Below are positions 2-35,483 of a stretch of 41,280 bases of DNA, piece by piece; position 1 is the stretch's first letter; every line of letters starts with the position of its first letter. Below the pieces are notes generated by a model. That model did no database searches, was not told the origin of the DNA, and worked only from the letters and a program-made list of their open reading frames with translations. Source of the DNA: a virus. The stretch lies in IMG/VR virus record IMGVR_UViG_3300024290_000008, positions 1 to 41,280 of that record; one strand, given 5' to 3'. The position numbers and the translations under genes were made by a program.

Positions 2-133
2 GACACGGCGGCGGGGAGCCCCTGCTGCCGGTTCCTCCCGTGCGACCACTGCCGACGGGCGATGGCGCGCATCCTACCGGAGACGGTCGCATCCCTGCTG
101 CAGTCGAAGCTCCGCGAGGACATCGCGTCGTGA
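2..133 (+). CDS. C-terminal end of a Cys-rich protein (5' partial)
   Basis: Frame 2 is open from the window edge to TGA at 131-133. The visible 43 residues carry a Cys cluster (CCRFLPCDHC) that could bind zinc, followed by a basic, helix-forming tail. The stop overlaps the ATG of the HNH gene (ATGA), so the two are probably translationally coupled. The start lies outside the window and I do not recognise the protein. Confidence 0.5.
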   Translation, partial: DTAAGSPCCRFLPCDHCRRAMARILPETVASLLQSKLREDIAS

Positions 134-489
134 TGACCGGGCAGGAGTACTACGAACAGCTGGTGGTCGAGGCCCGTGGGCGTCCGAACCGCCCGAGGTA
201 CTACATCGGCGGACCTCCCGCGCAGCGGATCCGCAACATGGAGAGCAGCCACGAGGGCCGCGCCCGCGAGGCCGGGGTCGTCTGGGACCATGTCGACATC
301 AGGGCGGTCTACCATCAGGAACTCGGGATTTGCGGGATCTGTAAACGCCCGGTCCCGTTCGAGACCTTCACGATCGACCATCGACGGCCGATCAGCCGGG
401 GCGGAACCCATGTTCGAGCAAACGTCCAACTCGCCCACGGGGCCTGCAATTCGAGGAAGGGAAACCGCTGGGATGGGCGCGAGCCGTAA
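133..489 (+). CDS. HNH endonuclease
   Basis: A protein of 118 residues with a C-terminal HNH nuclease motif. A CxxC pair (CGICKRP) is followed by FTIDHRRPISRGGTH, where the DH supplies the catalytic His, and then by NVQLAHGACNSRKG. HNH proteins of this size are common in tailed phages near the terminase and may assist DNA packaging or cut competing DNA. An in-frame ATG exists at 40, but ATG 133 overlaps the upstream stop and gives a more protein-like N-terminus (MTGQEYYEQLVV). I infer function from the motif only; a homing role is possible but no intron or intein is visible. Confidence 0.82.
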   Translation: MTGQEYYEQLVVEARGRPNRPRYYIGGPPAQRIRNMESSHEGRAREAGVVWDHVDIRAVYHQELGICGICKRPVPFETFTIDHRRPISRGGTHVRANVQLAHGACNSRKGNRWDGREP

Positions 490-676
490 GGGGGGACGGC
501 CCAGGAAGCCGGAGTCTGAGCACGCCGTGAGGTTCTCGATCACGATGGCCCCGAACCTCCACGCCCACCTGTGCCAGATGTCGCGCAAGAACGACGTCCC
601 GATCAGCAACATCATCGCCGCCGCCGTCCGCCTCCTCATCTGGCATCGGTCCGTCGCGCCCTCGACCAAAAAGTAA
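473..676 (+). CDS. small ribbon-helix-helix (CopG/Arc-like) DNA-binding protein
   Basis: A protein of 67 residues. After a basic start (MGASRKGGRPRKPE), the segment VRFSITMAPNLHAHL then NDVPISNIIAAAVRLLI has the beta strand plus two-helix pattern of ribbon-helix-helix dimers that bind operators. The ATG at 473 lies inside the end of the HNH gene (17-nt overlap). An in-frame upstream extension exists but reads as out-of-frame HNH sequence, so I reject it. It is probably a local transcriptional regulator; the target is unknown. Confidence 0.65.
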   Translation: MGASRKGGRPRKPESEHAVRFSITMAPNLHAHLCQMSRKNDVPISNIIAAAVRLLIWHRSVAPSTKK

Positions 677-724
677 CACCAAAACCAACGGGGCCATGCG
701 GCGGGGCTAATCTCGCTGCCACAC

Positions 725-1534
725 ATGGCACTCAAGGCGCGCATCTCGAAGCTCGACGACGTCAAGGAGATCGAGCGACCCTTCTACAAGGCTTCCGGCT
801 CCGAGTACGTCCTCGACGTGGACGGCATGGTCCCCGAGGAGGAGCTGACCGAGGTCAACACGAAGATCGCGGAGTTCCGCGACAACAACGTCCGGCTCGC
901 GCGCGAGAACGACTCGCTCAAGGCGAAGTACAAGGACGTCGACCCCGAGAAGTACCGGACCCTCCAGACCGAGGTCGAGAGCCTCAAGCGCAAGACGCCG
1001 GACACGACCGCCGTCGAGGTCCAGATCAAGCAGGCCGTCGACGCGGCGGTCGAGCCGATCCAGACACAGTTGAAGCAGCAGGCCGAGGCGCGCGCCCAGG
1101 CCGAGCAGAAGTACCAGGACAAACTCCTGGAGGACAAGCTCTGGGAGGTCGGCGTGAAGGCTGGCGTCAAGGAGAACATGCGGAAGCACTGGCTCTCCGA
1201 GGCGAAGCCGTTCTTCAAGCTCGAAGCCGAGCAGCTCGTCGGGGTCAAGCGGGACCACGACGGCAAGGAGGTCCCGCTCTACTCGGCGCGACGCGGGAAG
1301 GCCGCAGAGCGCATGACGGCCGAGGAGTGGGCGACCGAGATCGCTCCTGTCGACCCGACGATCTCTGAGTTCTACAAGGGGTCCTCGGGCGGCGGGGCCC
1401 GCAACGACGGGAAGCAGGTCCCGTCGACGGACCAGAGCGGCCGTCGCGTCCTTCCGGACGACCCGACCGTGCTGTCGCAGAACGTAGCGGACATCGCATC
1501 CGGGAAGGCAGTCCCGGCGAGCGCACTGCGTTAA
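725..1534 (+). CDS. capsid scaffolding protein
   Basis: A protein of 269 residues lying directly upstream of the coat gene, the usual place for a phage scaffold. It is highly charged. A long coiled-coil region (about residues 38-145, rich in E, K, Q and A) is followed by a short conserved patch (LEDKLWEVGVKAGVKENM) and a flexible Gly/Ser/Asp-rich C-terminus. Scaffolds direct procapsid assembly by binding the inner face of the coat protein and leave before DNA packaging. No protease domain is visible. The call rests on position and coiled-coil composition. Confidence 0.75.
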   Translation: MALKARISKLDDVKEIERPFYKASGSEYVLDVDGMVPEEELTEVNTKIAEFRDNNVRLARENDSLKAKYKDVDPEKYRTLQTEVESLKRKTPDTTAVEVQIKQAVDAAVEPIQTQLKQQAEARAQAEQKYQDKLLEDKLWEVGVKAGVKENMRKHWLSEAKPFFKLEAEQLVGVKRDHDGKEVPLYSARRGKAAERMTAEEWATEIAPVDPTISEFYKGSSGGGARNDGKQVPSTDQSGRRVLPDDPTVLSQNVADIASGKAVPASALR

Positions 1535-1580
1535 CCACCGCATCAGACACGAAGGACAGTAGCAGGCTGTCCGCGCCCGT

Positions 1581-1595
1581 CCTCCCGGTGGGAGG
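1581..1595 (+). terminator. hairpin between scaffold and coat genes
   Basis: CCTCCC, 3-nt loop, GGGAGG, in the 117-nt gap before the coat gene, followed by more G/C runs but no U tract. It could be a weak terminator, an RNA-stability element or an attenuator that sets the ratio of scaffold to coat. No ORF is credible in this gap. Confidence 0.3.
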
Positions 1596-1651
1596 GCCGG
1601 TCCCGCGCCCCGGGGGGGCTCCCGTGATGCCATCACAAGGAGTCCCCGCCC

Positions 1652-2785
1652 GTGCCCAACGATATCGCTACACTCCTCCCGAAGCTCGTCGCCCGTGGGC
1701 TGATGGCCCTCCGCCAGGAGGCGCGCATGCCCCGACTGGTCAACCGGGCGTACGAAGACCAGCCCGGCAAGCAGTTCTCGACGGTCACGATCCCGGTCCC
1801 GTCCGCCGTGACGGTCCAGGACGTCGTCCCCGCGAACACGCCGCCCTCGACCGCCGACACGGCCCTGACTGAGGTCCAGCTCGAAGTCGACCAGTGGAAG
1901 GAAGCGCCCTTCTACCTGACCGACAAGGAGATGACCCAGATCGACGCGCAGGAGAACTTCCTGCCCATGCAGGCGTCGGAGGCCATCAAGGCGATCGCCA
2001 ACACGCTGGACCGCGCCATCTGGGCGGAGTACGTGAACTTCTACGGGTTCGCCGGGACCCCGGGGGTCACGCCGTTCGCGACCGACACGTCGGACTACAC
2101 CGACGCGCGCCGGGAGCTGAACGAGCAGCTCGCGCCGATGGACCCCCGCTACATGGTGATCAACACCGACGCGGAGGCCAATGCCCTGAACCTCCGGGCC
2201 TTCCAGGACGCCTCGTTCTCCGGCTCGATCGACGGCATCGTCAACGGCCAGATCAACAACAAGCTCGGGGCCCGCTGGATGATGTCGCAGAACGCGCCCG
2301 AGCACACCCAGGGCGCGTCCGGGACCCCGCTGATCGACTTCGGCGCGGGCTACGCGACCGGCGTCAAGACGGTGCACATGGACGGGCTGACCGGTCGGCC
2401 GATCGCGGGCGACCACTTCACCCTCGCCGGGGACACCACGCACTACGTCGTGACCGCCGCGACGGCGCTCGTCGGCACGGACTCGGACGTCTCGTTCGAG
2501 CCTGCCCTGGCCGTGGCCCAGGTCGACAACGCGGCCGTGACGTTCGCGGGCAGCTACGCGGTCAACCTCCTGTTCCACCCGATGGCGATCGCGCTCGTGA
2601 CCCGTCCCTTCGACGGGGCCGACCCGTTCGCGCTCGGGAAGTTCTTCAGCCTGACGGACCCCATCTCGGGGATCGCGCTCCGGCTGGAGGTCACCCGCGA
2701 GCACAAGCGGACGCGGTTCGCCTACGACGTGCTCTACGGGATCAAGACGGTCCGGCGCGAGCTGGGCGTCGTCCTGGCCGGATAG
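1652..2785 (+). CDS. major capsid (coat) protein, P22 gp5-like
   Basis: A protein of 377 residues with a GTG start preceded by AAGGAG at 1637-1642. The N-terminal pattern (LLPKLVARGLMALRQE, then VNRAYEDQPGKQFSTVTIPVP) and the later QWKEAPFYLTDKEMTQID followed by a long helix match the P22-type coat family, which has the HK97 fold. The usual length of that family is about 380-430 residues. A central region (about 220-310) looks like the inserted beta-rich domain. It forms the icosahedral shell. A strong hairpin follows the gene, as expected for a highly expressed late gene. Confidence 0.88.
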   Translation: MPNDIATLLPKLVARGLMALRQEARMPRLVNRAYEDQPGKQFSTVTIPVPSAVTVQDVVPANTPPSTADTALTEVQLEVDQWKEAPFYLTDKEMTQIDAQENFLPMQASEAIKAIANTLDRAIWAEYVNFYGFAGTPGVTPFATDTSDYTDARRELNEQLAPMDPRYMVINTDAEANALNLRAFQDASFSGSIDGIVNGQINNKLGARWMMSQNAPEHTQGASGTPLIDFGAGYATGVKTVHMDGLTGRPIAGDHFTLAGDTTHYVVTAATALVGTDSDVSFEPALAVAQVDNAAVTFAGSYAVNLLFHPMAIALVTRPFDGADPFALGKFFSLTDPISGIALRLEVTREHKRTRFAYDVLYGIKTVRRELGVVLAG

Positions 2786-2810
2786 GCAGTCCGACGGACT
2801 GACACCTGAC

Positions 2811-2832
2811 GGGCGGACCCTCGGGTCCGCCC
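2811..2832 (+). terminator. hairpin downstream of coat gene
   Basis: A perfect inverted repeat, GGGCGGACC, loop CTCG, GGTCCGCCC, 26 nt after the coat stop. A second 6-bp inverted repeat (CAGTCC/GGACTG, 2787-2801) lies just before it. No long U tract follows. It could act as a partial terminator or a 3' mRNA stabiliser. Confidence 0.5.
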
Positions 2833-2866
2833 TCGGCCTTCACCACGACGAGACAGGAGTCCCAGC

Positions 2867-3169
2867 ATGAGCGCGAAGAACGGCGTCTTCAGCCCGAACA
2901 CGAAGACCGATCAGGTCAAGATCGCCTACGGGCAGGTCACGACCACGTCCGCGAACCACAGCATCGACACCGGGCTCAAGGAGATCTACGCCATCGTGGT
3001 CTCCCTCGACGGCGCGCCGGACAGCAACACCGGGGCGGTCTCGGCGGCGGTCCCCGCGAGCGGCGGGACGTTCGTCCTGAAGTCCTTCGACACGGCGGCG
3101 TCGAGCCCGTTCAATCCGGCGGCGTCGTCCTTCGGCGCGAAGGTGAACTACATCGCGGTCGGCCGGTAG
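2867..3169 (+). CDS. small virion protein, possibly capsid decoration
   Basis: A protein of 100 residues starting at ATG after ACAGGAG. It is beta-rich and small-residue-rich (YGQVTTTSANHSIDTGLKEI, ending in VNYIAVGR), without charged clusters or membrane segments. Its place directly after the coat gene is where decoration or head-stabilising proteins often sit. I do not recognise a named family, so the role is inferred from position. Confidence 0.55.
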   Translation: MSAKNGVFSPNTKTDQVKIAYGQVTTTSANHSIDTGLKEIYAIVVSLDGAPDSNTGAVSAAVPASGGTFVLKSFDTAASSPFNPAASSFGAKVNYIAVGR

Positions 3170-3199
3170 CACGGCGCACGCACATCGAGGGGAGCCAGC

Positions 3200-3580
3200 A
3201 TGTCGAAGCAGCTGCCGACCGTCCGGATCGCGCATCCGGGCGGGACCGGGACGATGGTGATCAACGAGCGGGACTACGACGCGACGGTCCACCGGCTCGC
3301 GTCGGAGGAGTCCGGCTCGGACGCCGACGAGCCCGAAGGCGACGAGCCTGAGACCCCGGCAGCGCCCGAGGCCCCGGTGCTGCCGGACCGCCCTGCCGCG
3401 CTGGAGTCGCCGCAGGCGTGGTCATCGTCGTCGGCCGACAGCTGCATCAAGGCGCTCGCGGCGATCGAGGACGTGATGGCCCTCGACGCCGTGAAGGACG
3501 TCGAGACCGGCGCGACGGGGAAGAACCGGAAGACGGTCCTCGACGCGATCGAGCGCCGTCGGAAGGCGCTCCAGGCGTAG
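3200..3580 (+). CDS. hypothetical head-module protein
   Basis: A protein of 126 residues with SD GAGGGGAG before the ATG. The N-terminal 30 residues (VRIAHPGGTGTMVINERDYD) look folded. An acidic, Pro-rich linker (about 35-75) follows, then a helical C-terminal half ending in basic residues (DAIERRRKALQA). Proteins with this layout often occur between coat and connector genes in phages. The function is not known to me. Confidence 0.55.
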   Translation: MSKQLPTVRIAHPGGTGTMVINERDYDATVHRLASEESGSDADEPEGDEPETPAAPEAPVLPDRPAALESPQAWSSSSADSCIKALAAIEDVMALDAVKDVETGATGKNRKTVLDAIERRRKALQA

Positions 3581-3583
3581 CCG

Positions 3584-4108
3584 ATGGCCCTGGTCCTCGT
3601 CGCCACGGCGGCGTCCGCGAGCGCGAACAGCTACGCGACCGTCGCGGACTTCCGGGCCTACATGGAGACGCGCCCTGAGGGCTGGGCCGACACGGACGCG
3701 GCCAACGAGGCGGAGGACCCGGAGGTCGCCCGGGCCCTGGTGACGGCGACCGCCCTGCTGGAGCAGTACGTCGACTGGGACGGCTGGACGTTCTCCAGCG
3801 CGCAAAGGCTCTCGTTCCCCCGGGCGGGCCTGCTGACGCCGACCGGGTTCGCGCTCCCGAGCGACGTCGTCCCGGAGCGGCTCCGCGACGCGACCTGCGA
3901 GCTCGCCGTGCAGGTCATGGCGGGCAACCGGACGCTCGACTCGGAGGTCTCGCTCGCGGGCATCAAGGCGCTCAAGGCGGGCCCAGTGGAGTTGGAGTTC
4001 AAGGAGTCGATCGCGATCCGGCCGATCCCGGACCGCGTCTGGCAGATGGTCTCCCTCTGGGGGAACCTGCTCCAGGGACAGCGGACGATCCCGCTGGTGC
4101 GCGTCTGA
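3584..4108 (+). CDS. head-tail connector / adaptor (phage DnaT-like family)
   Basis: A protein of 174 residues. The opening motif ANSYATVADFRAYMETR, then an alpha-helical core (ARALVTATALLEQYVDW), SFPRAGL, and the late helix RLRDATCELAVQVM match the head-tail adaptor family often annotated as putative DnaT-like. Adaptors of this fold sit under the portal ring. Its position between coat and tail-completion genes supports this. The stop overlaps the next ATG (TGATG). Confidence 0.72.
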   Translation: MALVLVATAASASANSYATVADFRAYMETRPEGWADTDAANEAEDPEVARALVTATALLEQYVDWDGWTFSSAQRLSFPRAGLLTPTGFALPSDVVPERLRDATCELAVQVMAGNRTLDSEVSLAGIKALKAGPVELEFKESIAIRPIPDRVWQMVSLWGNLLQGQRTIPLVRV

Positions 4109-4494
4109 TGGCGCTCGACGACATCGTCCGGTCCGCCGTCGGGATCGCGAACCGGCAGACGGCCGGGCTCCAGGGCACGGTCACGCATCGGATCCGGACG
4201 GTCGACGCGCGCGGCGGCACCGCGACGGCCTCGACGAAGAAGCGGAAGGGGCTCATCGAGGATCGGACGCGGCGGTTCCAGAAGGACGGCGTCGAGGTCG
4301 TCTCGCGGACAAAGCTCACGTTCCTGTCGGCGGTGCCGGTCGGAGACAACGACGAGTTCGTCCTCCCGTCCGGGGAGACCGTGGTCGTCCTCCAGGTCGA
4401 CAAGCTGGTCGACCCAAAGGCGTCAGGCGGGGGCGGGTATCTGACCGAGGTCTGGCTCGGGGCGAACGACCAAGGGATCAAGCGGGGAGTGTGA
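4108..4494 (+). CDS. head closure-like protein
   Basis: A protein of 128 residues starting with an ATG that overlaps the upstream stop by one base. It has a basic N-terminal half and a beta-rich C-terminal half (VSRTKLTFLSAVPVGDNDEF, then VLPSGETVVVLQVDKLVDP). The order adaptor, this gene, HK97 gp10-like gene, tail terminator is the standard head-completion order, and this slot is the stopper or head-closure protein. Named by position and beta-barrel-like composition only. Confidence 0.55.
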   Translation: MALDDIVRSAVGIANRQTAGLQGTVTHRIRTVDARGGTATASTKKRKGLIEDRTRRFQKDGVEVVSRTKLTFLSAVPVGDNDEFVLPSGETVVVLQVDKLVDPKASGGGGYLTEVWLGANDQGIKRGV

Positions 4495-4868
4495 TGCCTG
4501 GAGTCGTCGGGGTCGCCAGCGTCGTCGGGAACCTCTCCAGGACGTCGTCCCGCGTGCGGGCGGCGGGCGGGCGCGCGGTGCGCGCCGTGATGGAGGAGCG
4601 GGTGACCCGGATGAAGGCGCGGACGCCGGTCGACACGGGGGCGCTCCGGGGGAGCGGCCACGCGACCGGGCCGGACTTCTCGGGCGAGACGATCGAGGCG
4701 CGCGCGATCTTCGGGGGGCCTGCGGCCGGATATGCGCCGCCCGTCCACGAGAACCTCCGCGCGGTCCATCCGGTCGGGCAGGCCAAGTTCGTCGAGTCCG
4801 TGATGCTGGAGTCGGAGCGGGAGTTCATGCCCGACGTCGCCGCCCGGATGCGCACGGAGCTGGCGTAG
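4494..4868 (+). CDS. HK97 gp10-like tail completion protein
   Basis: About 124 residues. The segment ARTPVDTGALRGSGHA is the hallmark of HK97 gp10-like tail completion proteins and is followed by AIFGGPAAGYAPPVHEN and a C-terminal helix. A GTG at 4491 is also in frame; I prefer ATG 4494 because it overlaps the upstream TGA as in neighbouring genes. The protein acts at the head-tail junction during tail joining. Confidence 0.78.
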   Translation: MPGVVGVASVVGNLSRTSSRVRAAGGRAVRAVMEERVTRMKARTPVDTGALRGSGHATGPDFSGETIEARAIFGGPAAGYAPPVHENLRAVHPVGQAKFVESVMLESEREFMPDVAARMRTELA

Positions 4869-5294
4869 GTGGTCGACGACGAGATCGCGGGGCGGCTGGT
4901 CGAGAAGTCGGTCGCGGCGCTGAAGACGACGCTCTTCATCGGGGCGAAGGCCCAGCTGCCGAAGCGGGTGACCGGGGCCCCGGCGTTCCTGGTCGTCAGC
5001 TGCTACCAGGGGCGCGACCCCGTCCGGACGCACGACCGGGGGACCCAGACGGCGTATGCCCGTCCCCGGCTCCAGGTCGTCGCGCACGGGGACGAGCCGG
5101 GGGCGGTCTGGGCGCTGGCGATGGCGGCGTATGAGGCGCTCCCCCTCGACGACGACGCGGCGGGCGGGGCGGCGGTCGGCGGCGTCTGGTACCTGCGGAT
5201 CACGCCGCTGCAGGACCCCTGGGAGATGGGGCTCGACGATGCGGGGCGGCTGATGGTCGGGTTCAACCTGGAGACTGAGAAGCGGCCCTCGTAG
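4869..5294 (+). CDS. tail terminator / minor capsid-type protein
   Basis: A protein of 141 residues. GTG follows the previous TAG with no gap. An N-terminal helix is followed by strands FLVVSCYQGRD, TAYARPRLQVVAHG, a helix containing WALAMAAYEAL, then VWYLRITPLQDPWEMGLDDAG and a final strand (LMVGFNLETEKR). This is the pattern of the tail terminator family annotated as phage minor capsid protein. Such proteins cap the tail tube and bind the head connector. Confidence 0.75.
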   Translation: MVDDEIAGRLVEKSVAALKTTLFIGAKAQLPKRVTGAPAFLVVSCYQGRDPVRTHDRGTQTAYARPRLQVVAHGDEPGAVWALAMAAYEALPLDDDAAGGAAVGGVWYLRITPLQDPWEMGLDDAGRLMVGFNLETEKRPS

Positions 5295-5311
5295 GCCGGG
5301 AGGATTGAGCG

Positions 5312-5734
5312 ATGAGTGACGCTGTCGTAGCCACTGGCATTGAGCTTCGGATCGGAGACGGCGCGAGCCCCGAGGGCTTCACCGACGTCGTCCCTGAGCT
5401 GATGTCGATCACGCCCCCGGCCCGGTTCCGGAACCCGCTGGAGACCACGACCCACAACGACGGCGAGGAGTCGCATCTCCTCGGCATCCGTCGCTCGGAC
5501 ACGATCCCGTTCAAGGTGAACTGGATCGTCGACGACCCGATCCACCAGCAGCTCGAAAGCGACTACAACGCGAACACGCAGCGGACCTATCAGGTCGCGT
5601 ACCCGGACGGGACGACCCTGACGTTCCGCGCGGCGATCGAGCGCCTGTCGCCCGTCGAGGCGACTCCGGACTCGGTCAAGCAGCTGGACTGCGCCCTCCG
5701 CAAGGCGGGCCCGGTCACCGTCGCGTTCGCATAA
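5312..5734 (+). CDS. major tail tube protein
   Basis: A protein of 140 residues. It has an N-terminal TGIELRIGDG-type strand and PELMSITPPARFRNPLETTTH, typical of lambda-type tail tube subunits. The central region (IPFKVNWIVDDPIHQQLESDY) and final strands (PDGTTLTFRAAIERLSPVEA) also fit. It stacks as hexamers around the tape measure. It sits between the tail terminator and the tail chaperones, the conserved position. Confidence 0.85.
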   Translation: MSDAVVATGIELRIGDGASPEGFTDVVPELMSITPPARFRNPLETTTHNDGEESHLLGIRRSDTIPFKVNWIVDDPIHQQLESDYNANTQRTYQVAYPDGTTLTFRAAIERLSPVEATPDSVKQLDCALRKAGPVTVAFA

Positions 5735-5752
5735 GGCTGACGCTCGCTCCGG

Positions 5753-5777
5753 GCGCGGGCCTGCCCAGGGCCCGCGC
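5753..5777 (+). terminator. hairpin after tail tube gene
   Basis: A 9-bp inverted repeat (GCGCGGGCC ... GGCCCGCGC) with a 7-nt loop, followed by a pyrimidine-rich stretch (TTCTCTCCCTCTCT). It lies in the 84-nt gap between tube and chaperone genes, where a partial terminator would raise tube protein over chaperones. Function is inferred from shape and place. Confidence 0.45.
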
Positions 5778-5818
5778 GCCGGTCGGTTCTCTCCCTCTCT
5801 CAAGGAAACGGGGCTCAC

Positions 5819-6226
5819 ATGGGACTGCTCACGCGCGAGGTCATCCTCTCGGCCGACGACATCGGCTTCAAGATCGTCCCGGTCCCGGAGTGGGGCGGCG
5901 ACGTCCGCCTGAAGACACTCCGGGGCGACCAGATCGACGCCTACCAGCAATCGCGGCTCAAGAAGGACGGCGGGGTCGACATCAAGCGGAGCAAGGCGCA
6001 GCTCGTCGCGATGGCGAGCGTCGACGAGAAGGGGCAGCGGATCTTCACGCCCGAGGACGTCGAGCGGCTCGCGCAGAAGTCGAACATCGCGCTCGAACGG
6101 GTCGCCAAGGTCGTCGCGGATATGTCCGGACTAAAGCCTGAGTCCCTCGACGCAGCGGGGGAAGGCTTCGGGCCCGACCCGAGCGCGCCTTCTACCACCG
6201 CCTCGCCCTCGCCCTCGGAGGCATGA
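5819..6226 (+). CDS. tail assembly chaperone (lambda gpG-like)
   Basis: A protein of 135 residues preceded by CAAGGAAACGGGG. A folded N-terminal region (EVILSADDIGFKIVPVPEWG, then LKTLRGDQIDAYQQSRLKK) ends in a low-complexity Ser/Pro/Thr tail. Length and position between tail tube and tape measure match lambda gpG. The tail codons overlap a second reading frame (-1) that continues into the next ORF, so a minor fraction of ribosomes should make a longer G-T fusion. It chaperones the tape measure before tube polymerisation. Confidence 0.82.
   Translation: MGLLTREVILSADDIGFKIVPVPEWGGDVRLKTLRGDQIDAYQQSRLKKDGGVDIKRSKAQLVAMASVDEKGQRIFTPEDVERLAQKSNIALERVAKVVADMSGLKPESLDAAGEGFGPDPSAPSTTASPSPSEA
6157..6163 (+). 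promoter_or_regulatory. candidate -1 ribosomal frameshift site
   Basis: GGGGGAA in the chaperone frame reads G GGG GAA. A slip of one base back lets the P-site GGG re-pair perfectly. The -1 frame is open from 6142 (after TGA 6139-6141) and soon reads PERAFYHRLALALGGMTVQE, a protein-like run upstream of the first ATG of that frame at 6223. A second possible slip point is CCG at 6179-6181 (to CCC). The A-site match at GGGGGAA is imperfect, so the exact site is uncertain. Confidence 0.55.
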
Positions 6227-6591
6227 CGGTCCAGGAGATGCTCGTCCGCATGGACGCGGACGAGCTGATCTCCTGGCAGGCGTACGAGCGCGAGTACGGG
6301 CCCGTAGGCGACAAGCGCGCGGACTACCGCGCCGCGCAGATCACGGCGACGCTCAAGAACCTCCCGAGGGCCGACGGGCGCAGGGCGACCCGTCAGGTCA
6401 GCTACGAGGAGGAGCTGCTGAAGTTCGAGTCGAGGACTCCGAAGGCCACGGAGGACGGGCCGGAGCCGGAGCCCGCCTGGAAGGCGCACCGCGCGTCGAT
6501 GCTCCAGTGGGCCGAGACGGACCGGAGGGCCCGCGAGAAGAAGGCGGCGCGCGGCAAGAGGAAGACACCCACGCCACGACCAGGGCGCTGA
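6223..6591 (+). CDS. frameshift extension of tail assembly chaperone (gpT-like)
   Basis: The -1 frame ORF. From its first ATG it has 122 residues, but coding character extends upstream to about 6178, so the real product is probably the gpG-like protein fused to this segment by -1 frameshifting. The motif MTVQEMLVRMDADELISWQA followed by YEREYGPVGDKRADYRAAQI is the conserved T-domain pattern that binds tail tube subunits in lambda-like phages. The C-terminus is very basic. Independent initiation at 6223 is less likely. Confidence 0.75.
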   Translation: MTVQEMLVRMDADELISWQAYEREYGPVGDKRADYRAAQITATLKNLPRADGRRATRQVSYEEELLKFESRTPKATEDGPEPEPAWKAHRASMLQWAETDRRAREKKAARGKRKTPTPRPGR

Positions 6592-6604
6592 GCCCCGGGG
6601 GGCC

Positions 6605-9600
6605 ATGAGCGACGTCAACGTCGGGACCGTCTACGGGATCCTCCAGCTCCGGGACACGAACTGGTCCTCGACGGTGTCCTCGTCCGTCCGCGACATCAAG
6701 CAGTGGGAGCAGGTCGTCTCCGAGGCGACGACGAGCGCCGCCGCGCGGGTCGGGCGCGCGATGACGACCGTCGGATCCTCCGTCTCCCGCGCGGGCCAGA
6801 TCCTCTCCGTCGGCCTGACCGTCCCGCTCGCCGGAGCCGCCGTCGCGGCGACGAAGTTCGCCGCCGACTACGAGGCGGCGATGGTCAAGGTCGGCACCCT
6901 CTCCGAGAACAGCGCGTCGGACGTCGCCGCCATGTCGGAGGAGGTCCTCCGGCTCGCCCCGACCGTCGGGAAGGGCCCACAGGAACTCGCGGAGGCCCTC
7001 CTGGTCGTCACGTCGACCGGGCTCAAGGGCGCGGAGGCGATGGACGTCCTTACGGCGTCCGCGAAGGCGTCGGCCGTCGGCCTGGGGGACACGAAGGACG
7101 TCGCCCGGGCGATCACGTCGGCGGTCATGGCCTACGGCTCCGCGAACCTGTCGGCCTCGAAGGCGGCGGAGGTCCTGTTCAAGGCGGTCAAGGACGGCGG
7201 CGCGGAGGCCGACCAGTTCGCCGGGACCCTCGGCCGCGTCGTCGGCATCTCGGCCCAACTCGGGGTCTCCTTCGAGGACGTCACCGGGTTTATCGCGACC
7301 TTCACCCGGCTCGGCGTCGACGCCTCCGAGGCGACCACGGCCCTCCGGGGGACGATGTCGGAGCTGCTGAAGCCCTCGGCCGCGTCGAAGAAGGCGCTCG
7401 CTGAGGTCGGGGAGTCGGTCAAGACGGTCACGGAGCGGATCCAGAAGAACGGCCTCGCGGCGGGGCTCGCGGACCTGATGGAGAAGCTCAAGGGGAACGA
7501 TCAGGCCCTCGCGGCCATCTTCCCGAACGTCCGCGCCCTGGCGGGCATCCTCGGCACGGCCGGGTCCCAGGCCGACGCCTTCGCGGAGATCGAGAAGCAC
7601 CTGAAGGAGAGCACCGACGAGCTCGGGGACTCTTTCCAGCGGACGACGAAGACGACGGCCTTCACGTTCGCGGCCTTCCGGGCGGAGGTCGAGGTCCTGG
7701 CGATCCGGCTCGGCAACGAGCTGGCCCCGTCCTTCAGGGCCATCGTCGAGGGGGCGAAGCCGCTGCTCGGGATCGCGGAGGCGCTGGTCCGGATGTTCGC
7801 GGCGCTCCCGGACCCGATCAAGGGGACCGCGATCGCGACCGCCGCGCTCGTGGCCATCCTCGGCCCGCTGGGGATCCTCCTGGGCGGCGTGACGAACCTG
7901 ACGGGCAGCGTCGTCACGGCCTACGGCTACCTGACGGCGGCGGGGGCGGCGGCGACGGCCTCGAACGTCGCCCTCGCGGCGTCGAACGCCGGTGTCGGCG
8001 CGTCGGCCACGGTCGCAGCGGCAGGCATCACGGCGATGGAGACGGCCGTCCAGGCCGACCTTTTGGCGACCCTCGCGAACGACCTCGCGGCCTCCGGCAC
8101 GCAGATGGACCTCCTCGCCGGGGTCGCCAACACGGCCGCGATCAGTCAGACCGGGTTCGCGACGGCCACCGAGGTCGCCGGGGCGAGCGCAGCAGCGGCG
8201 GCGACGGAGGTCTCCCTCCTCGGGAGCGCCGTCGCCTTCGCGACGGGCCCCTGGGGGATCGCCATCGCCCTGCTCGGCGGGCTGGCGACAGCGACCTACC
8301 TCGCGGCGACCGCCGAGAGCGACATGGAGAAGGCGGTCCGCGAGAACGCGACCGGGTTCGGGAAGCAGACCAACGCGATGGCCTCCGCCCTGGACACCTA
8401 CAAGGCCCTGAGCAGCCAGACGAAGCTGACCAAGGACGAGGCGAACCGGCTCGACTCCGCGACGCGGACCCTCGCCCAGGCGAGCGGGCTCTCGAAGGAG
8501 CAGTTCGAGAAGGAGGCCAAGGCGTCGGACACCCTGACGGTCGCGTTCCGCGACCAGATCCGCGCGCGCAAGGACCTGTACACGCAGGCGATCAACGAGG
8601 CCCGGACGAAGTGGGCCGAGGCGGTCGAGGCGCAGGCCGCAGCCGAGAAGCTCCTCCACGACACCCTGACGAACCAGCGGGAGACCGTCGCCCCGGCGGC
8701 GGGCCCCGGCGGCGCGCCGGTCGCGCGCGGCATGACCCCGGCGGAGCGGAACAACGAGATCCAGCGGCTCAACGGCGTCCTCGCGGACCTCCGGCGGAAC
8801 ACCGCCCAGGCCGAGGGGGCGTTCACCACGCTGGCCGGGGTGACGGCGAAGTGGATCGACCTCGGGGGACCGGCGGTCGCGGCGACGAAGGGCACGGCGG
8901 ACAGCCTCGACGCCCTCGCCAAGGCCCAGAAGGAGTACGACGACGAGGTCCAGAAGAACGGGCTCGACACGTTCCGCAAGGCGATGGAGCTGCACAAGCA
9001 GTTCGGCAAGTCCGTCGAGGAGGCTGCTGCCGCCTACGGCCTCACGGTCCCCGCCCTGGAGCGGTACCTGACCATCCAGCAGGGCGTCAACAAGTCGCTG
9101 AAGGAGTCCGATGCCGGGAAGTTCTCGAAGTCCGTCCGCGAGCTGGCGACGTCCCTGGGCGAGGCCCAGGCGGCGGGAGCCCCGCTGTCCCTCGTCCTGG
9201 CGGAGTACGGGGCCAAGGCGGCGGACCTCGTCCAGAAGGCCCCGCTGTTCGCTGCGGCCCTGACGCAGCCGATCACGGACCTCGCGGCGGCGTGGTCGAA
9301 CCAGAAGCTCCTCGGGGTCGAGAAGGTCCTGGAGGCCGAGACGGCCTTCAAGGCCCTCAGCTCCGCGATCGCGGCGTCGGGCGGCGACCTGTCGAAGCTG
9401 GACGTCTCCGCCCTGCGGTCGGAGTTCAACGCGCTCGACGCCGGGATCGGCGTCCTGATCGCGACGGGCGCGAAGATCGCCCCGCAGTGGCAGGAGATCC
9501 AGGCCACGGTCGGCGGAGCCCTCTCGCGGATGGACGGGAACCTGAAGAACACCGTGTCGAGCACCCAGGTCCTCGCCCAGATGAACCCGTTCGGGACCAT

Positions 9601-12484
9601 CACGAAGGGCGTCACGGACCTGATCTCCGGCAACGCGAGCTTCGACGCGGCCAGTCAGGCGGTCAAGGACTTCCAGACGGCGCTCGCGCAGTCCGGGTCG
9701 ATCGGGACGATGAGCCTCGGCTCCCTCCGGACGACGTTCAAGACGGTCGAGGAGGGGATCGCCGCGATGCGGCGCGCGGGCCAGCCGATCCCGCAGGACT
9801 GGAAGAACACCGCGCAGGTCGTCGGCGCGGAGCTGTCCCGGATGGGGGACGACATCTCCGGGGTCACGGCGCTGGAGAACGAGCTGGTCAAGGCCCAGGA
9901 GGCCCAGGGCGGCGACACGCTCGCGCGGCGGATCTCCGACATCCAGCGCGAGTTCAAGCAGCGGCGCGACGCCCTGCGGTCCGCCGAGGCGGACACGGAG
10001 GAGTACGGGCGGAAGCTCCAGATCCTCGGGCAGATCGAGGCGCAGGTCACGAAGAACGCCACCGAGGAGTGGAACCGCGCGAACTCGACCCTCCGGGGCG
10101 TGTCGACGGTCCTCGGGATCGTGGCCGAGGGGTTCGGGACGCTCGGCCAGATTGCAGGCGGGTCCCTCGCGGCGGTCGTCAAGGCCATCGGCGGGATCGC
10201 CGTCGCCTGGGACGGAGCCGTGAAGGGGTTCCTGGCCTTCCGGGACGCCCTCCAGAAGAACGGCGGGGGCCTGAAGGGGCTCGGGGCCATGCTCGCCAGC
10301 CAGCTCGCCGGGGGCTTCCTGAGCGGCTTCGCCGGGATCATGTCCGCGACGACCTTTACGTCGACCCTAAAGAACGCGTTCGCCGGGGGCCTGACCGGCG
10401 CGGCCTACGGGGCCGGGATCGGAGCGACAATCGCCGTCGCGATCGGGCACGGCGCGATGGCCGGGGGGATCTGGGGCGCGGTCGCCGGGTTCGCCGTCGG
10501 GGTCATCGTCGGCGTCTTCCGGGGCGCGGCGACCCGCCGGACGATGCATCAGGTCGGGGAGGAGTGGGGCCACGACATCTCCCAGGGCCTCGCCCAGACG
10601 ATCAACAAGGAGGCGAAGGAGCTGTTCCAGGGGAGCCGGGACGCCGCCCAGATCTTCAACCTCGCGGACACCCTCTCGGAGGTCGGCGGGGTCTCGACGA
10701 AGAACTACGCCAAGGCGATCAAGGAGCTGCGCGACACGTTCTCGCAGCTGGAGCTGGGCGTCTTCAACACGTCCCAGGCGCAGAAGGTCCTCAACGACAA
10801 CTTCGGGACCTTCGTCGACCTGACGATGAAGAACGGGGTCGGGCTCATCACGTCGAAGCTCCGGGAGATCGTCAAGCTCGATCGGGAGTTCGGGACGAAC
10901 TCGTCGGCCATCGCCTCGTTCGTCGCGCAGCAGATGGGGCGGGCCTTCGAGGGGTTCAACGCGATCGCGGCGAACTTCACCGAGACCTGGACGGGGACCA
11001 TCGAGGACGCCTCCTCGCAGCTCGACGACCTGACGAACAAGGAGAAGACGCTCAAGGCCGAGATCGGGGGACTCACCAAGCTGGACCAGCTGACCCCGAA
11101 GCAGGCCGCGCAGCTGAGCACCTGGAAGACCCAACTCTGGGACGTCGAGAGCCAGATCCGGGACCTCAACGAGGAGATGGAGAAGGCCGGGAAGGTCTCC
11201 GAGGCCATGATCCCCGGCTCTGCCGAGGAGTTCGACCGGCTCGGGCGGATCGCCGTCGCGACCTTCACAGCGGCGCTCGCCTCCGGGGAGACCGTCGTCC
11301 AGGCGATCGGGGACATCCAGGGCGGGCTCGACTCCCTCCGGAAGGCGACGAACTATGGGTTCACGGCGAAGGGGTCGTTTGCGGACCTGCTCGGCCTGTC
11401 GGACTTCGTCGAGAAGAACCAAGCGGTCGTCGCCGCCGCCGACGGGCTGAACGGGATCCTCCAGGGGCTCCAGAACTCGGCCTTCCTGGACCAGCAGACG
11501 TTCACCGACCTCGGGGACGAGGCCGTGAACCAGTTCCAGAAGATGATCGCCTCCGGCGCGACGACCGATCAGGCGTTCAAGATCATGCAGCCGTCCCTCC
11601 AGACGATCTGGGAGCTGCAGAAGGACTTCGGGTTCGCGGTCGACGACGCGACCCAGGCCCTCCTCGATCAGGCCGAGGCGTCGGGACAGGTCGGGGAGAA
11701 GAACCGGTCGGTCCAGGAGCAGACGCTCGACGTCCTGGAGCGCATGTCGTCGACCCTCGATGCGCTCGCGACAGCCTTCGGGGTCACGCTGCCGTCCGAC
11801 ATCGACAAGACGAAGGGGAGCGTCGGGGACCTGGGCGGGGCCCTCGACGACGCCGTCGCGAAGATCCCGGACAATATCGACATCCCGGTCCGGTGGGGCG
11901 TGCCCCCGATCGACCTCCCGAAGATCCCCACGGTGACGATCCCGGTCAATTACCCGAGGTACCCAGAGGCGTACGGGCCGGGCGGCGAGCCGATCCAGTA
12001 CGCGAGCGGAGGTCCGGTCGGGATGCTCCCCGGCTACGCGATGGGCGGGCCCGTCTACGCGGCCTCCGGGTTCTATGTTCCACGTGGAACAGACACGATC
12101 CCGGCGATGCTCTCGCCCGGGGAGTTCGTGATGCCGAGCCTGCCGACGAGCCGGGTCGGCATCGGGGCGCTGAACTACATCAAGTCGACCGGGACGCTCC
12201 CGACCGGCGGGTCGTTCGCTGCGCCGCCGCCGCCCGCGTCGGGGTTCCGGTCGGTCGTCGCGACCGGCCCGACGGACCAGGGCGGCACGATGGCGACCCG
12301 GCGGATGGAGCTGACGGTCAAGGTCGACCTCGGCGGGGCGACCATCAAGGACGACGTCGACGCCGAGAAGGTCGGGTTCGCGGTGGCCGACCGGCTGAAG
12401 CGCAACGGGGCGCTGCGGACGGCCTGGGGCGACCAGATCGAGGGGATCATCAAGCAGCGGACGCCGCGCGGGAGGGCCTCGTGA
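6605..12484 (+). CDS. tape measure protein
   Basis: A protein of 1959 residues, the largest gene here. The N-terminal part contains the TP901-type tape measure core (FAADYEAAMVKVGTLSEN, then TGLKGAEAMDVLTASAKASA and LGVSFEDVTGFIATFTRLGV). Long Ala-rich helices and coiled coils follow. Hydrophobic Gly/Ala stretches near residues 400-435 and 1265-1305 may help DNA cross the membrane. The C-terminus has the conserved PRGTDTIPAMLSPGEFVMPS motif. The protein sets tail length; using the usual rule of about 1.5 angstrom per residue, the tail would be near 290 nm (inference). A parS-like palindrome is embedded at codons near 1824-1829. Confidence 0.93.
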   Translation: MSDVNVGTVYGILQLRDTNWSSTVSSSVRDIKQWEQVVSEATTSAAARVGRAMTTVGSSVSRAGQILSVGLTVPLAGAAVAATKFAADYEAAMVKVGTLSENSASDVAAMSEEVLRLAPTVGKGPQELAEALLVVTSTGLKGAEAMDVLTASAKASAVGLGDTKDVARAITSAVMAYGSANLSASKAAEVLFKAVKDGGAEADQFAGTLGRVVGISAQLGVSFEDVTGFIATFTRLGVDASEATTALRGTMSELLKPSAASKKALAEVGESVKTVTERIQKNGLAAGLADLMEKLKGNDQALAAIFPNVRALAGILGTAGSQADAFAEIEKHLKESTDELGDSFQRTTKTTAFTFAAFRAEVEVLAIRLGNELAPSFRAIVEGAKPLLGIAEALVRMFAALPDPIKGTAIATAALVAILGPLGILLGGVTNLTGSVVTAYGYLTAAGAAATASNVALAASNAGVGASATVAAAGITAMETAVQADLLATLANDLAASGTQMDLLAGVANTAAISQTGFATATEVAGASAAAAATEVSLLGSAVAFATGPWGIAIALLGGLATATYLAATAESDMEKAVRENATGFGKQTNAMASALDTYKALSSQTKLTKDEANRLDSATRTLAQASGLSKEQFEKEAKASDTLTVAFRDQIRARKDLYTQAINEARTKWAEAVEAQAAAEKLLHDTLTNQRETVAPAAGPGGAPVARGMTPAERNNEIQRLNGVLADLRRNTAQAEGAFTTLAGVTAKWIDLGGPAVAATKGTADSLDALAKAQKEYDDEVQKNGLDTFRKAMELHKQFGKSVEEAAAAYGLTVPALERYLTIQQGVNKSLKESDAGKFSKSVRELATSLGEAQAAGAPLSLVLAEYGAKAADLVQKAPLFAAALTQPITDLAAAWSNQKLLGVEKVLEAETAFKALSSAIAASGGDLSKLDVSALRSEFNALDAGIGVLIATGAKIAPQWQEIQATVGGALSRMDGNLKNTVSSTQVLAQMNPFGTITKGVTDLISGNASFDAASQAVKDFQTALAQSGSIGTMSLGSLRTTFKTVEEGIAAMRRAGQPIPQDWKNTAQVVGAELSRMGDDISGVTALENELVKAQEAQGGDTLARRISDIQREFKQRRDALRSAEADTEEYGRKLQILGQIEAQVTKNATEEWNRANSTLRGVSTVLGIVAEGFGTLGQIAGGSLAAVVKAIGGIAVAWDGAVKGFLAFRDALQKNGGGLKGLGAMLASQLAGGFLSGFAGIMSATTFTSTLKNAFAGGLTGAAYGAGIGATIAVAIGHGAMAGGIWGAVAGFAVGVIVGVFRGAATRRTMHQVGEEWGHDISQGLAQTINKEAKELFQGSRDAAQIFNLADTLSEVGGVSTKNYAKAIKELRDTFSQLELGVFNTSQAQKVLNDNFGTFVDLTMKNGVGLITSKLREIVKLDREFGTNSSAIASFVAQQMGRAFEGFNAIAANFTETWTGTIEDASSQLDDLTNKEKTLKAEIGGLTKLDQLTPKQAAQLSTWKTQLWDVESQIRDLNEEMEKAGKVSEAMIPGSAEEFDRLGRIAVATFTAALASGETVVQAIGDIQGGLDSLRKATNYGFTAKGSFADLLGLSDFVEKNQAVVAAADGLNGILQGLQNSAFLDQQTFTDLGDEAVNQFQKMIASGATTDQAFKIMQPSLQTIWELQKDFGFAVDDATQALLDQAEASGQVGEKNRSVQEQTLDVLERMSSTLDALATAFGVTLPSDIDKTKGSVGDLGGALDDAVAKIPDNIDIPVRWGVPPIDLPKIPTVTIPVNYPRYPEAYGPGGEPIQYASGGPVGMLPGYAMGGPVYAASGFYVPRGTDTIPAMLSPGEFVMPSLPTSRVGIGALNYIKSTGTLPTGGSFAAPPPPASGFRSVVATGPTDQGGTMATRRMELTVKVDLGGATIKDDVDAEKVGFAVADRLKRNGALRTAWGDQIEGIIKQRTPRGRAS
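12076..12091. other. parS: parS-like ParB binding site inside tape measure gene
   Basis: TGTTCCACGTGGAACA is a perfect 16-bp palindrome that fits the bacterial chromosomal parS pattern TGTTnCACGTGnAACA. It is encoded by the codons TAT GTT CCA CGT GGA ACA, six in a row ending in A or T, inside a gene whose codons nearly all end in G or C. The encoded residues (YVPRGT) belong to a conserved tape measure motif, but the codon choice is not explained by the protein. Binding by host or phage ParB is inferred. No parA or parB gene is visible in the window. Confidence 0.7.
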
Positions 12485-20119: not shown

Positions 20120-20781
20120 CGACCGGGACGATCGCCTACTGCTCGCGCGAGGACCAGATCTACCCGGGGTTTGCGGCGCATCTCGCGCGGCTCTGCCAGC
20201 AGCACCCGGACGCGAAGGTCCTCCACGCGATCACGAACGACATCGCGGACGGCCGGAACCAGTGCGTCCGCCAGATGGAGGGCGACTGGCTCTGGTTCAT
20301 CGACGCCGACATGCTGTTCGCCATGAACACGCTCGACCGGCTGCTGGCGCACAACGTCGACCTCGTCCAGGTCCTCTGCGCGCGGCGGCACCCGCCGCAC
20401 CAGCCGATCATGTGGCAGGACCACGCGGGGCTGATCAACGCGACGCCGCGCGGCGTCCCCGGGCTGACGGAGGTCCAGAGCCTCGGGGCGGGCGGGACGC
20501 TCTACCGCCGCCGGGTCTTCGAGGCGATCCCCGACCCCTGGTTCGAGGGCGTCCTCGGGCTGGAGGACACGTGCCTCGCGCAGAAGGCGCGGCTCGCGGG
20601 CTTCACGCTCTACGTCGACACGTCGACGCCGGTCGAGCACACGACCCCGATGCTCGTCGCCTGGGAGTACGTCAACGGGCGCTGGGGGCTCCGCTACACG
20701 TCGATGAACGGACAGCAGCTCCACATCGCCGTGAAGACCGACTCGAAGATCGTCAGCCCCTACGAGGTCGTCGGGCGATAG
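20116..20781 (+). CDS. GT-A type glycosyltransferase
   Basis: 221 residues from GTG 20116, overlapping the upstream stop. The opening IAYCSREDQIYPGFAAHLAR, then LWFIDADMLFAMNTLDRLLA, carries the DxD metal- and sugar-nucleotide-binding motif of GT-A enzymes. Later GAGGTLYRRRVFEAIPDPWF and GLEDTCLAQKARLAG resemble the acceptor region (with a GxED-like base). No membrane segment. Set among tail genes, it may glycosylate virion proteins or host surface sugars. Substrate unknown. Confidence 0.75.
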   Translation: MTTGTIAYCSREDQIYPGFAAHLARLCQQHPDAKVLHAITNDIADGRNQCVRQMEGDWLWFIDADMLFAMNTLDRLLAHNVDLVQVLCARRHPPHQPIMWQDHAGLINATPRGVPGLTEVQSLGAGGTLYRRRVFEAIPDPWFEGVLGLEDTCLAQKARLAGFTLYVDTSTPVEHTTPMLVAWEYVNGRWGLRYTSMNGQQLHIAVKTDSKIVSPYEVVGR

Positions 20782-25467: not shown

Positions 25468-25974
25468 ATGCCCGGCTACATCCCGCACGGCATGTGCCTG
25501 CTCTGGGAGCCTTGGCTCCTCTGGCTGACGGTCGCGGCGGACCTCGTCATCGGGGCGTCCTACATGCTGGCGATCAGCCCGGTCCTCGTGCTGCTCCGTC
25601 GTCGGGAGTACGGGGCGCTCCGCTGGTTCTTCTACTGGTTCGCGGCCTTCATCGCGCTGTGCGGACTGACCCACTTCGACGACGTCCTGAACGTCTGGGT
25701 CCCGGCCTACTGGTACGCGATGGTCGTCAAGGTGTGCACGGCCCTCGTCTCCGCGACGACGGCGGGCCTGCTGATCCGGCACCGCCGCGCGATCGCGGAC
25801 TACCCGACCCCAGCGGAGTTGGCCATGAAGAACGAACGACTCCAGCACGACGCGGACGCGCTGCGGAAGGCCATGACGGTCCTCGGGACCGAGTACGCGA
25901 TCAAGGCCAAGCACCTGGAGGGGATCGCGAGCATCGTCTCCCGGCTGGAGGCACTGTCGGAGCGTGCCTCGTGA
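25468..25974 (+). CDS. ethylene-receptor-like three-helix membrane sensor domain with coiled coil
   Basis: 168 residues. Three membrane helices (about 17-43, 52-73, 80-102) open with PHGMCLLWEPWLLWL, as in bacterial histidine kinases with an ethylene-receptor-type N-terminus. Without gaps it lines up with plant ETR1: Asp25, Tyr32, Ile62, Cys65 and His69 fall at the same numbers (AAFIALCGLTHFDD); Cys65 and His69 are the copper ligands there. Ile35 and Pro36 of ETR1 are changed. A coiled coil (107-168) follows and the protein ends without kinase. The next gene, a PAS protein, overlaps by 4 nt. Role in the phage unknown: signal decoy, receptor or modified holin are options. Confidence 0.75.
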   Translation: MPGYIPHGMCLLWEPWLLWLTVAADLVIGASYMLAISPVLVLLRRREYGALRWFFYWFAAFIALCGLTHFDDVLNVWVPAYWYAMVVKVCTALVSATTAGLLIRHRRAIADYPTPAELAMKNERLQHDADALRKAMTVLGTEYAIKAKHLEGIASIVSRLEALSERAS

Positions 25975-26905: not shown

Positions 26906-27361
26906 ATGAACCTGGACCGCCTGAAGACGAAGCTCGACGCCGCCGAGGCCCGCCGGGTCCGCGTCTACGACGACCGGACGGGGAAGGACATCGTCCCAGG
27001 GACGCTGGTCCAGGGGCACCCGACGATCGGCGTCGGGCGCGCGCTCGACGTGAACGGCCTGTCGGGCGACGAGATCGAGTTCCTGCTCGACAACGACATC
27101 CGGCGGCGGCAGGCGGAGATCCTCCGCGCGCTCCCGTGGTGGTCGACGCTCGACGACGTCCGGCAGGAGGTCGTCTTCGAGATGGAGTTCCAGACGGGCC
27201 TCGGCGGGCTCCTGGGGTTCCACGACGCGCTCTCCCACATGAAGGCGGGTCGGTTCGAGGACGCCGCGCGCGAGATGCTCGACAGCCACGTCGCGCGCGA
27301 CGTTGCGCCCGGTCGGTGGCGACGGATGGCCGAGGAGATGCGGACAGGGGTGTCAGCATGA
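26906..27361 (+). CDS. endolysin, T4-type lysozyme (GH24)
   Basis: 151 residues. Catalytic pattern E14 ... D23 ... T40, with the same E-to-D spacing (9) as T4 lysozyme: AAEARRVRVYDD then GHPTIGVGRALD. The C-terminal lobe shows VVFEMEFQTGLGGLLGFHDA and ARDVAPGRWRRMAEEM, typical for GH24. It cleaves the MurNAc-GlcNAc bond of peptidoglycan. An insertion of about 8 residues separates D23 from the TIGVG motif compared with T4. No signal peptide, so it needs a holin. Stop overlaps the next ATG. Confidence 0.85.
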   Translation: MNLDRLKTKLDAAEARRVRVYDDRTGKDIVPGTLVQGHPTIGVGRALDVNGLSGDEIEFLLDNDIRRRQAEILRALPWWSTLDDVRQEVVFEMEFQTGLGGLLGFHDALSHMKAGRFEDAAREMLDSHVARDVAPGRWRRMAEEMRTGVSA

Positions 27362-31224: not shown

Positions 31225-31623
31225 ATGTCAGAGGGACAAAAACCAGGAGCAGTGCCGGAGCCGGACCCGATCCAGCCGCTCCCGGTCACGTTGATCGGCG
31301 TCCGCTCGGAGAACTCAGGCGCACCGATCGTCGACGGACAGGTCATCGCCACGCCGGACCATCAGCCGAACCTCGTGGTCCAGGTCATCACGCCGCTGCT
31401 CGCGGTCGTGATCCGGTTCACGAACGCCTACCTGACCGCGATCGTGGGCCTGCTCGTCGGCGGACCGGCGACCGGTCTGGTGACGGCGGTCGACCTGTAC
31501 CATCTGGTCCTCAAGTGCGCGTCGCTCGCGCTGTTCGGGCCCGTGGTGGCGCTGCTCAAGGACGTCATCACGATCCTGACCGGCCTGGAGCGCAAGTTCC
31601 CGATTGCTACGGGCAACGTCTAG
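31225..31623 (+). CDS. membrane protein, possible holin-like
   Basis: 132 residues with SD GAGGAGGAAAGC. About 50 hydrophilic residues are followed by hydrophobic spans: VQVITPLLAVVIRF, AYLTAIVGLLVGGPATGLVT and VLKCASLALFGPVVALL. Two or three membrane helices are likely. Function unknown; its place near lipoproteins suggests an envelope role. Confidence 0.55.
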   Translation: MSEGQKPGAVPEPDPIQPLPVTLIGVRSENSGAPIVDGQVIATPDHQPNLVVQVITPLLAVVIRFTNAYLTAIVGLLVGGPATGLVTAVDLYHLVLKCASLALFGPVVALLKDVITILTGLERKFPIATGNV

Positions 31624-32771: not shown

Positions 32772-32981
32772 ATGGAAACACGATGCTTCTTCCGCGCCTG
32801 TAAGAACCCGGTCGCCTACGAGGTCACGAAGCGATGGAACGGCAAGATCGTCCACGCCTGCGAGGACCACCGGCCCGGCCAGCGCGGGCTCTGGATGCCG
32901 CTGGCCTCTGGGCCCTCGGCCCCGGCCCCGTCCGGCCGCCGGTACTCGAACGACTTCTACGCGGTCGTCCCGGTCAAGTGA
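32772..32981 (+). CDS. small zinc-finger protein from a leaderless transcript
   Basis: 69 residues. Cys and His spacing (C5, C10, then VHACEDH with C and H three residues apart) suggests a one-zinc treble-clef knuckle. No SD; the ATG sits where transcription should start. The stop overlaps the methyltransferase-like GTG (GTGA). Function unknown. Confidence 0.6.
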   Translation: METRCFFRACKNPVAYEVTKRWNGKIVHACEDHRPGQRGLWMPLASGPSAPAPSGRRYSNDFYAVVPVK

Positions 32982-34828: not shown

Positions 34829-35149
34829 ATGCCGCGGATCATCTACCCTGAAGTCCGGACGGTCACCGAGGAGTGGGTCGTGGGACAGGCCCACGACCTC
34901 CTCGTTAACGACGCGCTCGAAGCCGAAGCCCTCAGGGTCGGCGCGGAGAACGTCCCCGACGGCTACTGGCCGGAGATCGCCCGCCCGTCCTACGACGAGG
35001 CGTACGAGATCCTCGCGGACTCCGGGGTCGTCACCTTCGCGAGCGACGACCTGGACGACGCGCGGTTCTGCGAGATGTCCGCCGAAGACTGGCGCGAGGT
35101 CGAGGCCGACCACGCGCTCGACGACGACCGGCTTGACGACCGCGATTGA
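34829..35149 (+). CDS. small acidic protein, partner of the duplicated tail
   Basis: 106 residues: MPRIIYPEVRTVTEEWVVGQ ... YDEAYEILADSGVVTFASDD, ending EMSAEDWREVEADHALDDDR then LDDRD, the same C-terminus as the gene at 34341. Stop TGA lies inside promoter element 4. Function unknown. Confidence 0.55.
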   Translation: MPRIIYPEVRTVTEEWVVGQAHDLLVNDALEAEALRVGAENVPDGYWPEIARPSYDEAYEILADSGVVTFASDDLDDARFCEMSAEDWREVEADHALDDDRLDDRD

Positions 35150-35174
35150 CATACAGACTCGTTTGACATACAAT
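35146..35174 (+). promoter_or_regulatory. tandem TTGACATACA promoter element 4
   Basis: TTGACA 35146 and TACAAT 35169, 17-bp spacer, second TTGACA 35163. ATG 35182 is 7 nt after the -10: leaderless. Confidence 0.75.
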
Positions 35175-35181
35175 CCAGAAC

Positions 35182-35445: not shown

Positions 35446-35483
35446 TACGGTTCACAGACCAGCGACGACAAGGAGCCATAACG

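Follow-up and report, generated by a model that had tools for sequence, protein, structure and literature searches.

A chromosomal-type parS sequence within the tape measure gene of a GC-rich phage and its recurrence in other phages

Introduction

Why would a phage gene whose codons nearly all end in G or C turn, for six codons in a row, to A and T, and in doing so spell the site at which bacteria load their chromosome segregation protein ParB? The question is raised by an IMG/VR virus record of 41,280 bases, analyzed here at full length (the window), with a GC content of about 70%. Its genes follow the order of long-tailed phages (scaffold, P22-type coat protein, connector genes, tail tube, chaperone, and tape measure). 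The record is probably incomplete, and the absence of par genes and an integrase reported below is therefore provisional. A preliminary description of this DNA had pointed to a parS palindrome in the tape measure gene, to the codons that encode it, and to a conserved peptide motif as its home; here, we ask what the site is, what maintains it, and what may read it.

Results

A perfect parS match in unusual codons

The features under discussion are as follows.

6605..12484 (+ strand): tape measure gene, 1959 aa, assigned from PHROG matches and its translation; the palindrome lies near its 3' end, in motif GFYVPRGTDTIPAMLSPGEFVMP
12074..12091 (+ strand): codons TAT GTT CCA CGT GGA ACA (Y V P R G T), which hold the palindrome in frame
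12076..12091 (no strand assigned): parS-type 16-bp perfect palindrome TGTTCCACGTGGAACA, C/G allele, identical to Pseudomonas aeruginosa parS2/parS3 (PMC4368675)

Fifteen PHROG matches, the best at 3e-51, identify the tape measure gene. The palindrome agrees with the chromosomal parS consensus TGTTNCACGTGNAACA at 14 of 14 fixed bases with no mismatch, just as the preliminary description had claimed, and is by its sequence a chromosomal-type parS. Composition predicts about 2e-5 exact parS matches in 41 kb at 70% GC (hand calculation, 41280 x 0.15^8 x 0.35^6). The nearest second candidate in the window, at 22860, carries three mismatches and was dismissed as chance level. A 16-bp palindrome in itself was likewise rejected as evidence, as the window contains three other perfect ones (20442-20457, 27288-27303, and 29699-29714), all GC-rich and without relation to parS. 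A run of six A-ending codons (GQKPGA) also occurs at 31234-31251, near the 5' end of the gene at 31225, and probably reflects ordinary 5'-end codon bias. Because palindromes of this length and a six-codon A-ending run both recur in the window, the remarkable feature is parS identity and codon deviation combined.

That deviation is extreme. The tape measure gene has 1960 codons, of which 97% end in G or C and 3.1% in A or T, and outside the six codons at the site it never has four or more A/T-ending codons in succession. The gene uses GTT for one of its 135 valines and CGT for one of its 76 arginines, both at this site. Given the amino acids, the joint probability of the six codons is 7.6e-10 as a product of codon frequencies, or 4.6e-10 with the six site codons removed from the usage table. 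When the gene was reshuffled synonymously 3000 times, the closest approach to parS was three mismatches, a distance reached 13 times, and no reshuffle came within two; the real gene has zero. These values, a codon probability of about 1e-9 and 0/3000 reshuffles, point to selection on the DNA word rather than on the peptide. Because very rare codons spell parS, it is almost certainly the word, and not the VPRGT peptide, that is under selection and kept as DNA.

The peptide is common and the word is not

Using a codon-neutral pattern for VPRGTDT[IVM]PAM, we recovered 47 viral stretches that encode this motif, and the VPRGT peptide is thus common in tape measures. The earlier statement that VPRGT is conserved there holds for the peptide and does not extend to the DNA word: among these homologues, which were not chosen for the word, exact TGTTCCACGTGGAACA occurs in one of 47, an AT-rich gene (L136), against 0.107 cases expected from the homologues' own codon usage. 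No other parS was found anywhere in the whole records of the 47. Three GC-rich homologues (L128, L162, and L172) encode VPRGT in GC-rich codons without the palindrome (in L172, GTG CCG CGG GGG ACC), and the proposal that the motif offers the site a stable home is consequently abandoned. The preliminary description had suggested comparing synonymous codons in homologues and had regarded VPRGT in GC-ending codons without a palindrome as evidence against its reading; this is literally what that comparison returned. As evidence against function, however, the pattern is weak, since even closely related phages differ in where parS has been gained or lost (see below). Because the peptide is common, the word is not, and the 47 records hold no other parS, the site is best read as a gain in the phage's own lineage and not as an old feature of tape measures.

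A search of IMG/VR for close relatives of the tape measure and capsid found none. In bacterial genomes, the tape measure motif with GC-ending flanks was not found. There, TGTTCCACGTGGAACA followed by GAYAC occurs at nine loci, all with readings unlike the tape measure motif; four of five genomes searched from these loci carry 2-12 parS sites.

These comparisons bear on the simplest alternative, that chance or a short AT-rich recombination patch produced the word, since VPRGT can encode parS. The peptide is indeed common in tape measures, AT-rich phages can reach the word through codon choice (as the 0.107 expected and one seen among 47 illustrate), and rare words surface when many windows are inspected. 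Nevertheless, the probability given the amino acids is about 1e-9, the patch stops exactly at the palindrome, and an A/T-ending patch would still need luck of roughly 1 in 32 to form it. Together with the control counts below, where parS stands far above control palindromes in phages generally, this makes an origin without selection very improbable.

parS words are enriched in phages and track host groups

In IMG/VR, TGTTCCACGTGGAACA is present in at least 120 stretches, versus one for the same-composition palindrome TTGTCCACGTGGACAA. Among the 50,697 phage records of INPHARED, the T/A allele TGTTTCACGTGAAACA occurs exactly in 286 records (824 strand matches, or 412 sites) and TGTTCCACGTGGAACA exactly in 58 records (67 sites), counts that are inflated by RefSeq/GenBank duplicates and include some short contigs without annotation ("Listeria phage LM") that may derive from the host. 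Two composition-matched control palindromes were found in 0 and 0 of the same 50,697 records, and the chance expectation is about 0.5 sites per 16-bp word in 2.3 Gb (hand calculation, 2.3e9/4^16). Most parS-bearing records have a single site. Isolated virulent phages with a site include Listeria P100, Pseudomonas KPP25, and Arthrobacter, Microbacterium, and Gordonia phages. This enrichment, together with the codon probabilities of 4.6e-10 to 7.6e-10, supports the earlier claim that the DNA word itself is selected.

The alleles sort by host in INPHARED. The C/G allele TGTTCCACGTGGAACA is found in Pseudomonas phages and equals the Pseudomonas host parS consensus (PMC7022226), and the T/A allele TGTTTCACGTGAAACA is found in Listeria, Microbacterium, Arthrobacter, Gordonia, Bacillus, and Lactobacillus phages. 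At the two free positions, phage parS words nearly always have the T/C and A/G choices of chromosomal parS (138 of 145 in one locus set). Exceptions to the host sorting are RaK2-like Klebsiella phages and uncultured microviruses. Hosts of the RaK2-like Klebsiella phages are not known to have a chromosomal ParABS. The phenomenon is also patchy, because Mycobacterium is not among the top host names for either allele though mycobacteriophages are numerous in the collection.

In other phages, the same word lies in unrelated genes and in intergenic DNA. A role of the six codons in RNA structure, translation pausing, or the folding of the tail protein would account neither for this distribution nor for the parS match itself. 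The site is predicted to form a 6-bp hairpin (loop ACGU), and ribosomes can be slowed by rare codons, yet regional folding energy is ordinary (z = -1.10), and we consider an explanation of this kind scarcely credible.

Sites are gained and lost among related phages

In phages of Arthrobacter globiformis, parS lies in the capsid maturation protease gene, where it encodes a linker peptide (D)VSRET in the codons GAT GTT TCA CGT GAA ACA/G, exact or with one end mismatch. Within the region read, BruhMoment has three such sites and AWGoat, SilentRX, and Wilde have none. In Ranunculus, the protease gene has two and the portal gene a third, and Odyssey395, Pointis, and MellowYellow have one each. In the alignment, the sites fall at several different positions, where sequences that lack one mostly use GC-ending codons. 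Similarly, homologues of one Microbacterium phage gene, obtained by a protein search independent of parS, carry an exact parS in seven of the 11 chosen, with T/A, C/G, and mixed alleles at non-homologous positions. In both the Arthrobacter and the Microbacterium phages, the sites read as linker peptides in rare codons.

Across high-GC genes of IMG/VR, the codon probabilities of in-frame parS words range from about 1e-5 to 1e-10; as the word was the basis on which these loci were chosen, only their recurrence and position are informative. One portal-like family (L284, L363, L301, L279, L292, L315, and L349) has parS at the same place (VSRETHGP), in rare codons of GC-rich genes, and is nearly absent from isolated phages. 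From these sequence comparisons, parS in phages is seen to turn over: sites have come and gone repeatedly, both in structural genes and in other genes, which would reflect selection for the DNA word. In a GC-rich phage, an in-frame parS lies just 5' of a DNA polymerase A-like motif (L061:9548-9563; VPRGTNVFVWSDWSQIEARIV).

Host ParB is the probable reader

The window has no match to ParB_N (PF02195), to the ParA-type AAA_31 (PF13614), or to phage integrase (PF00589) in its 41,280 bases, a record that may be incomplete; at that scope, the parA and parB of a phage-encoded ParABS were not found. Chromosomal parS is usually near oriC and parAB, a setting that is typical and not defining, and here the site stands in a virus record without a ParB_N or AAA_31 match. 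A ParB_N match is missing from 34 of 37 parS-bearing virus records, and an integrase or AAA_31 match was found in none of 23. With ParB_N undetected in most carriers and no ParA-type match among 23, the reader of phage parS is probably host ParB. We rejected integrase rate as a signal of lifestyle, as the difference between 0/23 and 3/47 in the comparison set is too small.

P. aeruginosa parS2/parS3, which equal TGTTCCACGTGGAACA, showed the tightest ParB binding among the sites tested, and parAB with a single such parS stabilized an unstable plasmid in that system (PMC4368675). Myxococcus xanthus parS is TGTTCCACGTGGAACG (PMC3899335). ParB is loaded onto DNA at parS, where it forms a CTP clamp, and then spreads (PMC12704722). 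In Caulobacter it covers about 2 kb around a single site, and in B. subtilis about 10 kb (PMC5815017).

A different reader would be a regulator, from either the phage or the host, or a partition protein of the phage whose gene is on a part of the genome that is missing here. This record, a linear fragment, may lack genes, and in one virus locus (L375) the asymmetric TGTTTCACGTGGAACA occurs 13 times, in several cases directly preceding an open frame in an operator-like arrangement. Against this, all 14 fixed parS positions match, the free positions are chromosomal-like in 138 of 145, alleles track host groups, ParB_N is undetected in 34 of 37 carriers, and the site is deep in a structural gene, away from a promoter. 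We regard another reader as improbable.

Discussion

Overall, we propose that the word at 12076-12091 is a functional host-chromosome-type parS that selection maintains at the DNA level within a structural gene, in a phage whose 41-kb record yielded no parA, parB, or integrase, and we put the probability of this reading at roughly 0.78. It is favored because of parS identity, extreme codons, enrichment versus controls, repeated gain and loss, and the match between allele and host, the last drawn from the hosts of other phages, such that the ParB of this phage's own host may prefer another allele. The presence of this site in many isolated phages suggests that they make use of the host segregation protein ParB.

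We suggest that host ParB would recognize the site during infection, close as a CTP clamp, and spread along the phage DNA. The phage genome would then bear a ParB complex like an extra chromosome origin, on which ParA and SMC could act. The infecting genome might thereby be held, placed, or segregated with the nucleoid, and would not be lost if the host divides or goes dormant before lysis. We give this use (retention, placement, or segregation) about even odds, and prefer it to ParB titration because of the analogy with phi29 and Spo0J.

Titration itself would make the site a decoy: replicated phage parS would draw ParB and SMC off the host origin, disturb segregation and the cell cycle, and free resources. 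Perfect palindromes are the class bound tightest in P. aeruginosa (PMC4368675), many carriers are non-integrating, even a single site per genome is multiplied into many by late infection, and some small phages have up to six sites (inovirus L386). Most records, in contrast, have a single site where a decoy would favor clusters, and the phi29 precedent is one of retention. We think the decoy unlikely, though it is the main alternative use.

That precedent is the closest known relative of the retention model. As described in PMC9437464, the phi29 genome is carried into the Bacillus spore by Spo0J (Meijer et al. 2005), and we find two exact parS words in the phi29 relative B103. The window phage resembles this system at the sequence level, with no partition genes of its own detected and a host-type parS on its DNA. 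It differs in that its host is probably GC-rich with no evidence of sporulation, its site is in the tape measure gene, and no Spo0A-type regulation has been shown. Plasmid prophages such as P1 and RedRock likewise have a centromere site on phage DNA, but encode ParA and ParB with their own, different sites, whereas the window phage has neither detected and its site is host-type. Mycobacteriophage RedRock, for example, encodes ParABS, and its own site consists of 8-bp direct repeats (PMC7157519). Relative to the chromosomal ParABS sites of P. aeruginosa (parS2/parS3, the identical allele) and M. xanthus, the phage site is the same 16-bp palindrome; however, it is single, in a structural gene, and has no parAB or host origin nearby. 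Arthrobacter, Microbacterium, Listeria P100, Gordonia, and Pseudomonas KPP25 phages also have exact parS, often in in-frame rare codons, in other genes and with other alleles.

Our search of the open literature returned no report of host-type parS in phages beyond phi29 and Spo0J, and the exact word TGTTCCACGTGGAACA only in ParB papers. The use of host Spo0J by phi29 is known, and a parS of host type placed within a structural gene, on a phage where no par genes were detected, would be a new form of it; a general enrichment of host parS in phages appears undescribed in the searchable open literature. We lean slightly toward the view that host parS has arisen again and again in many unrelated phage lineages, most of them lacking an integrase and par genes, and is kept there, often in frame in structural genes, to recruit ParB-ParA-SMC, as a general and unrecognized strategy. 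If so, the core ParB-parS centromere of the host would be a common phage target well beyond phi29 and Spo0J, and the parS sequence would also indicate host group. It would open questions of ParB loading on infecting DNA, of genome carriage through division or dormancy, and of ParB titration. Isolated Arthrobacter, Microbacterium, Listeria, Bacillus, and Pseudomonas phages with or without sites make the idea testable now. Likewise, phage genes would carry a DNA message over their codons, which matters for the interpretation of phage codon usage.

Finally, several observations lie beside this argument. The 5.9-kb inovirus L386 (PQ006149) has six exact TGTTTCACGTGAAACA, at 635, 662, 1414, 2857, 4096, and 5628, that are mostly intergenic, and uncultured microviruses of the same collection also carry the parS word. 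The TGTTTCACGTGGAACA copies of L375 span 80-7625, and L350 has eight at 5824-8610; these arrays, with several copies just 5' of open frames, resemble operator arrays or partition regions. Within the window, a gene at 25468-25974 (+) encodes a small membrane protein that matches the ethylene-receptor N-terminal domain ETR1_N (Pfam PF25487, 1.3e-22), which is unusual in a phage, and the right half encodes a DNA methyltransferase (32834-33694, phrog_757) and an AAA ATPase (35133-37058, PF00004).
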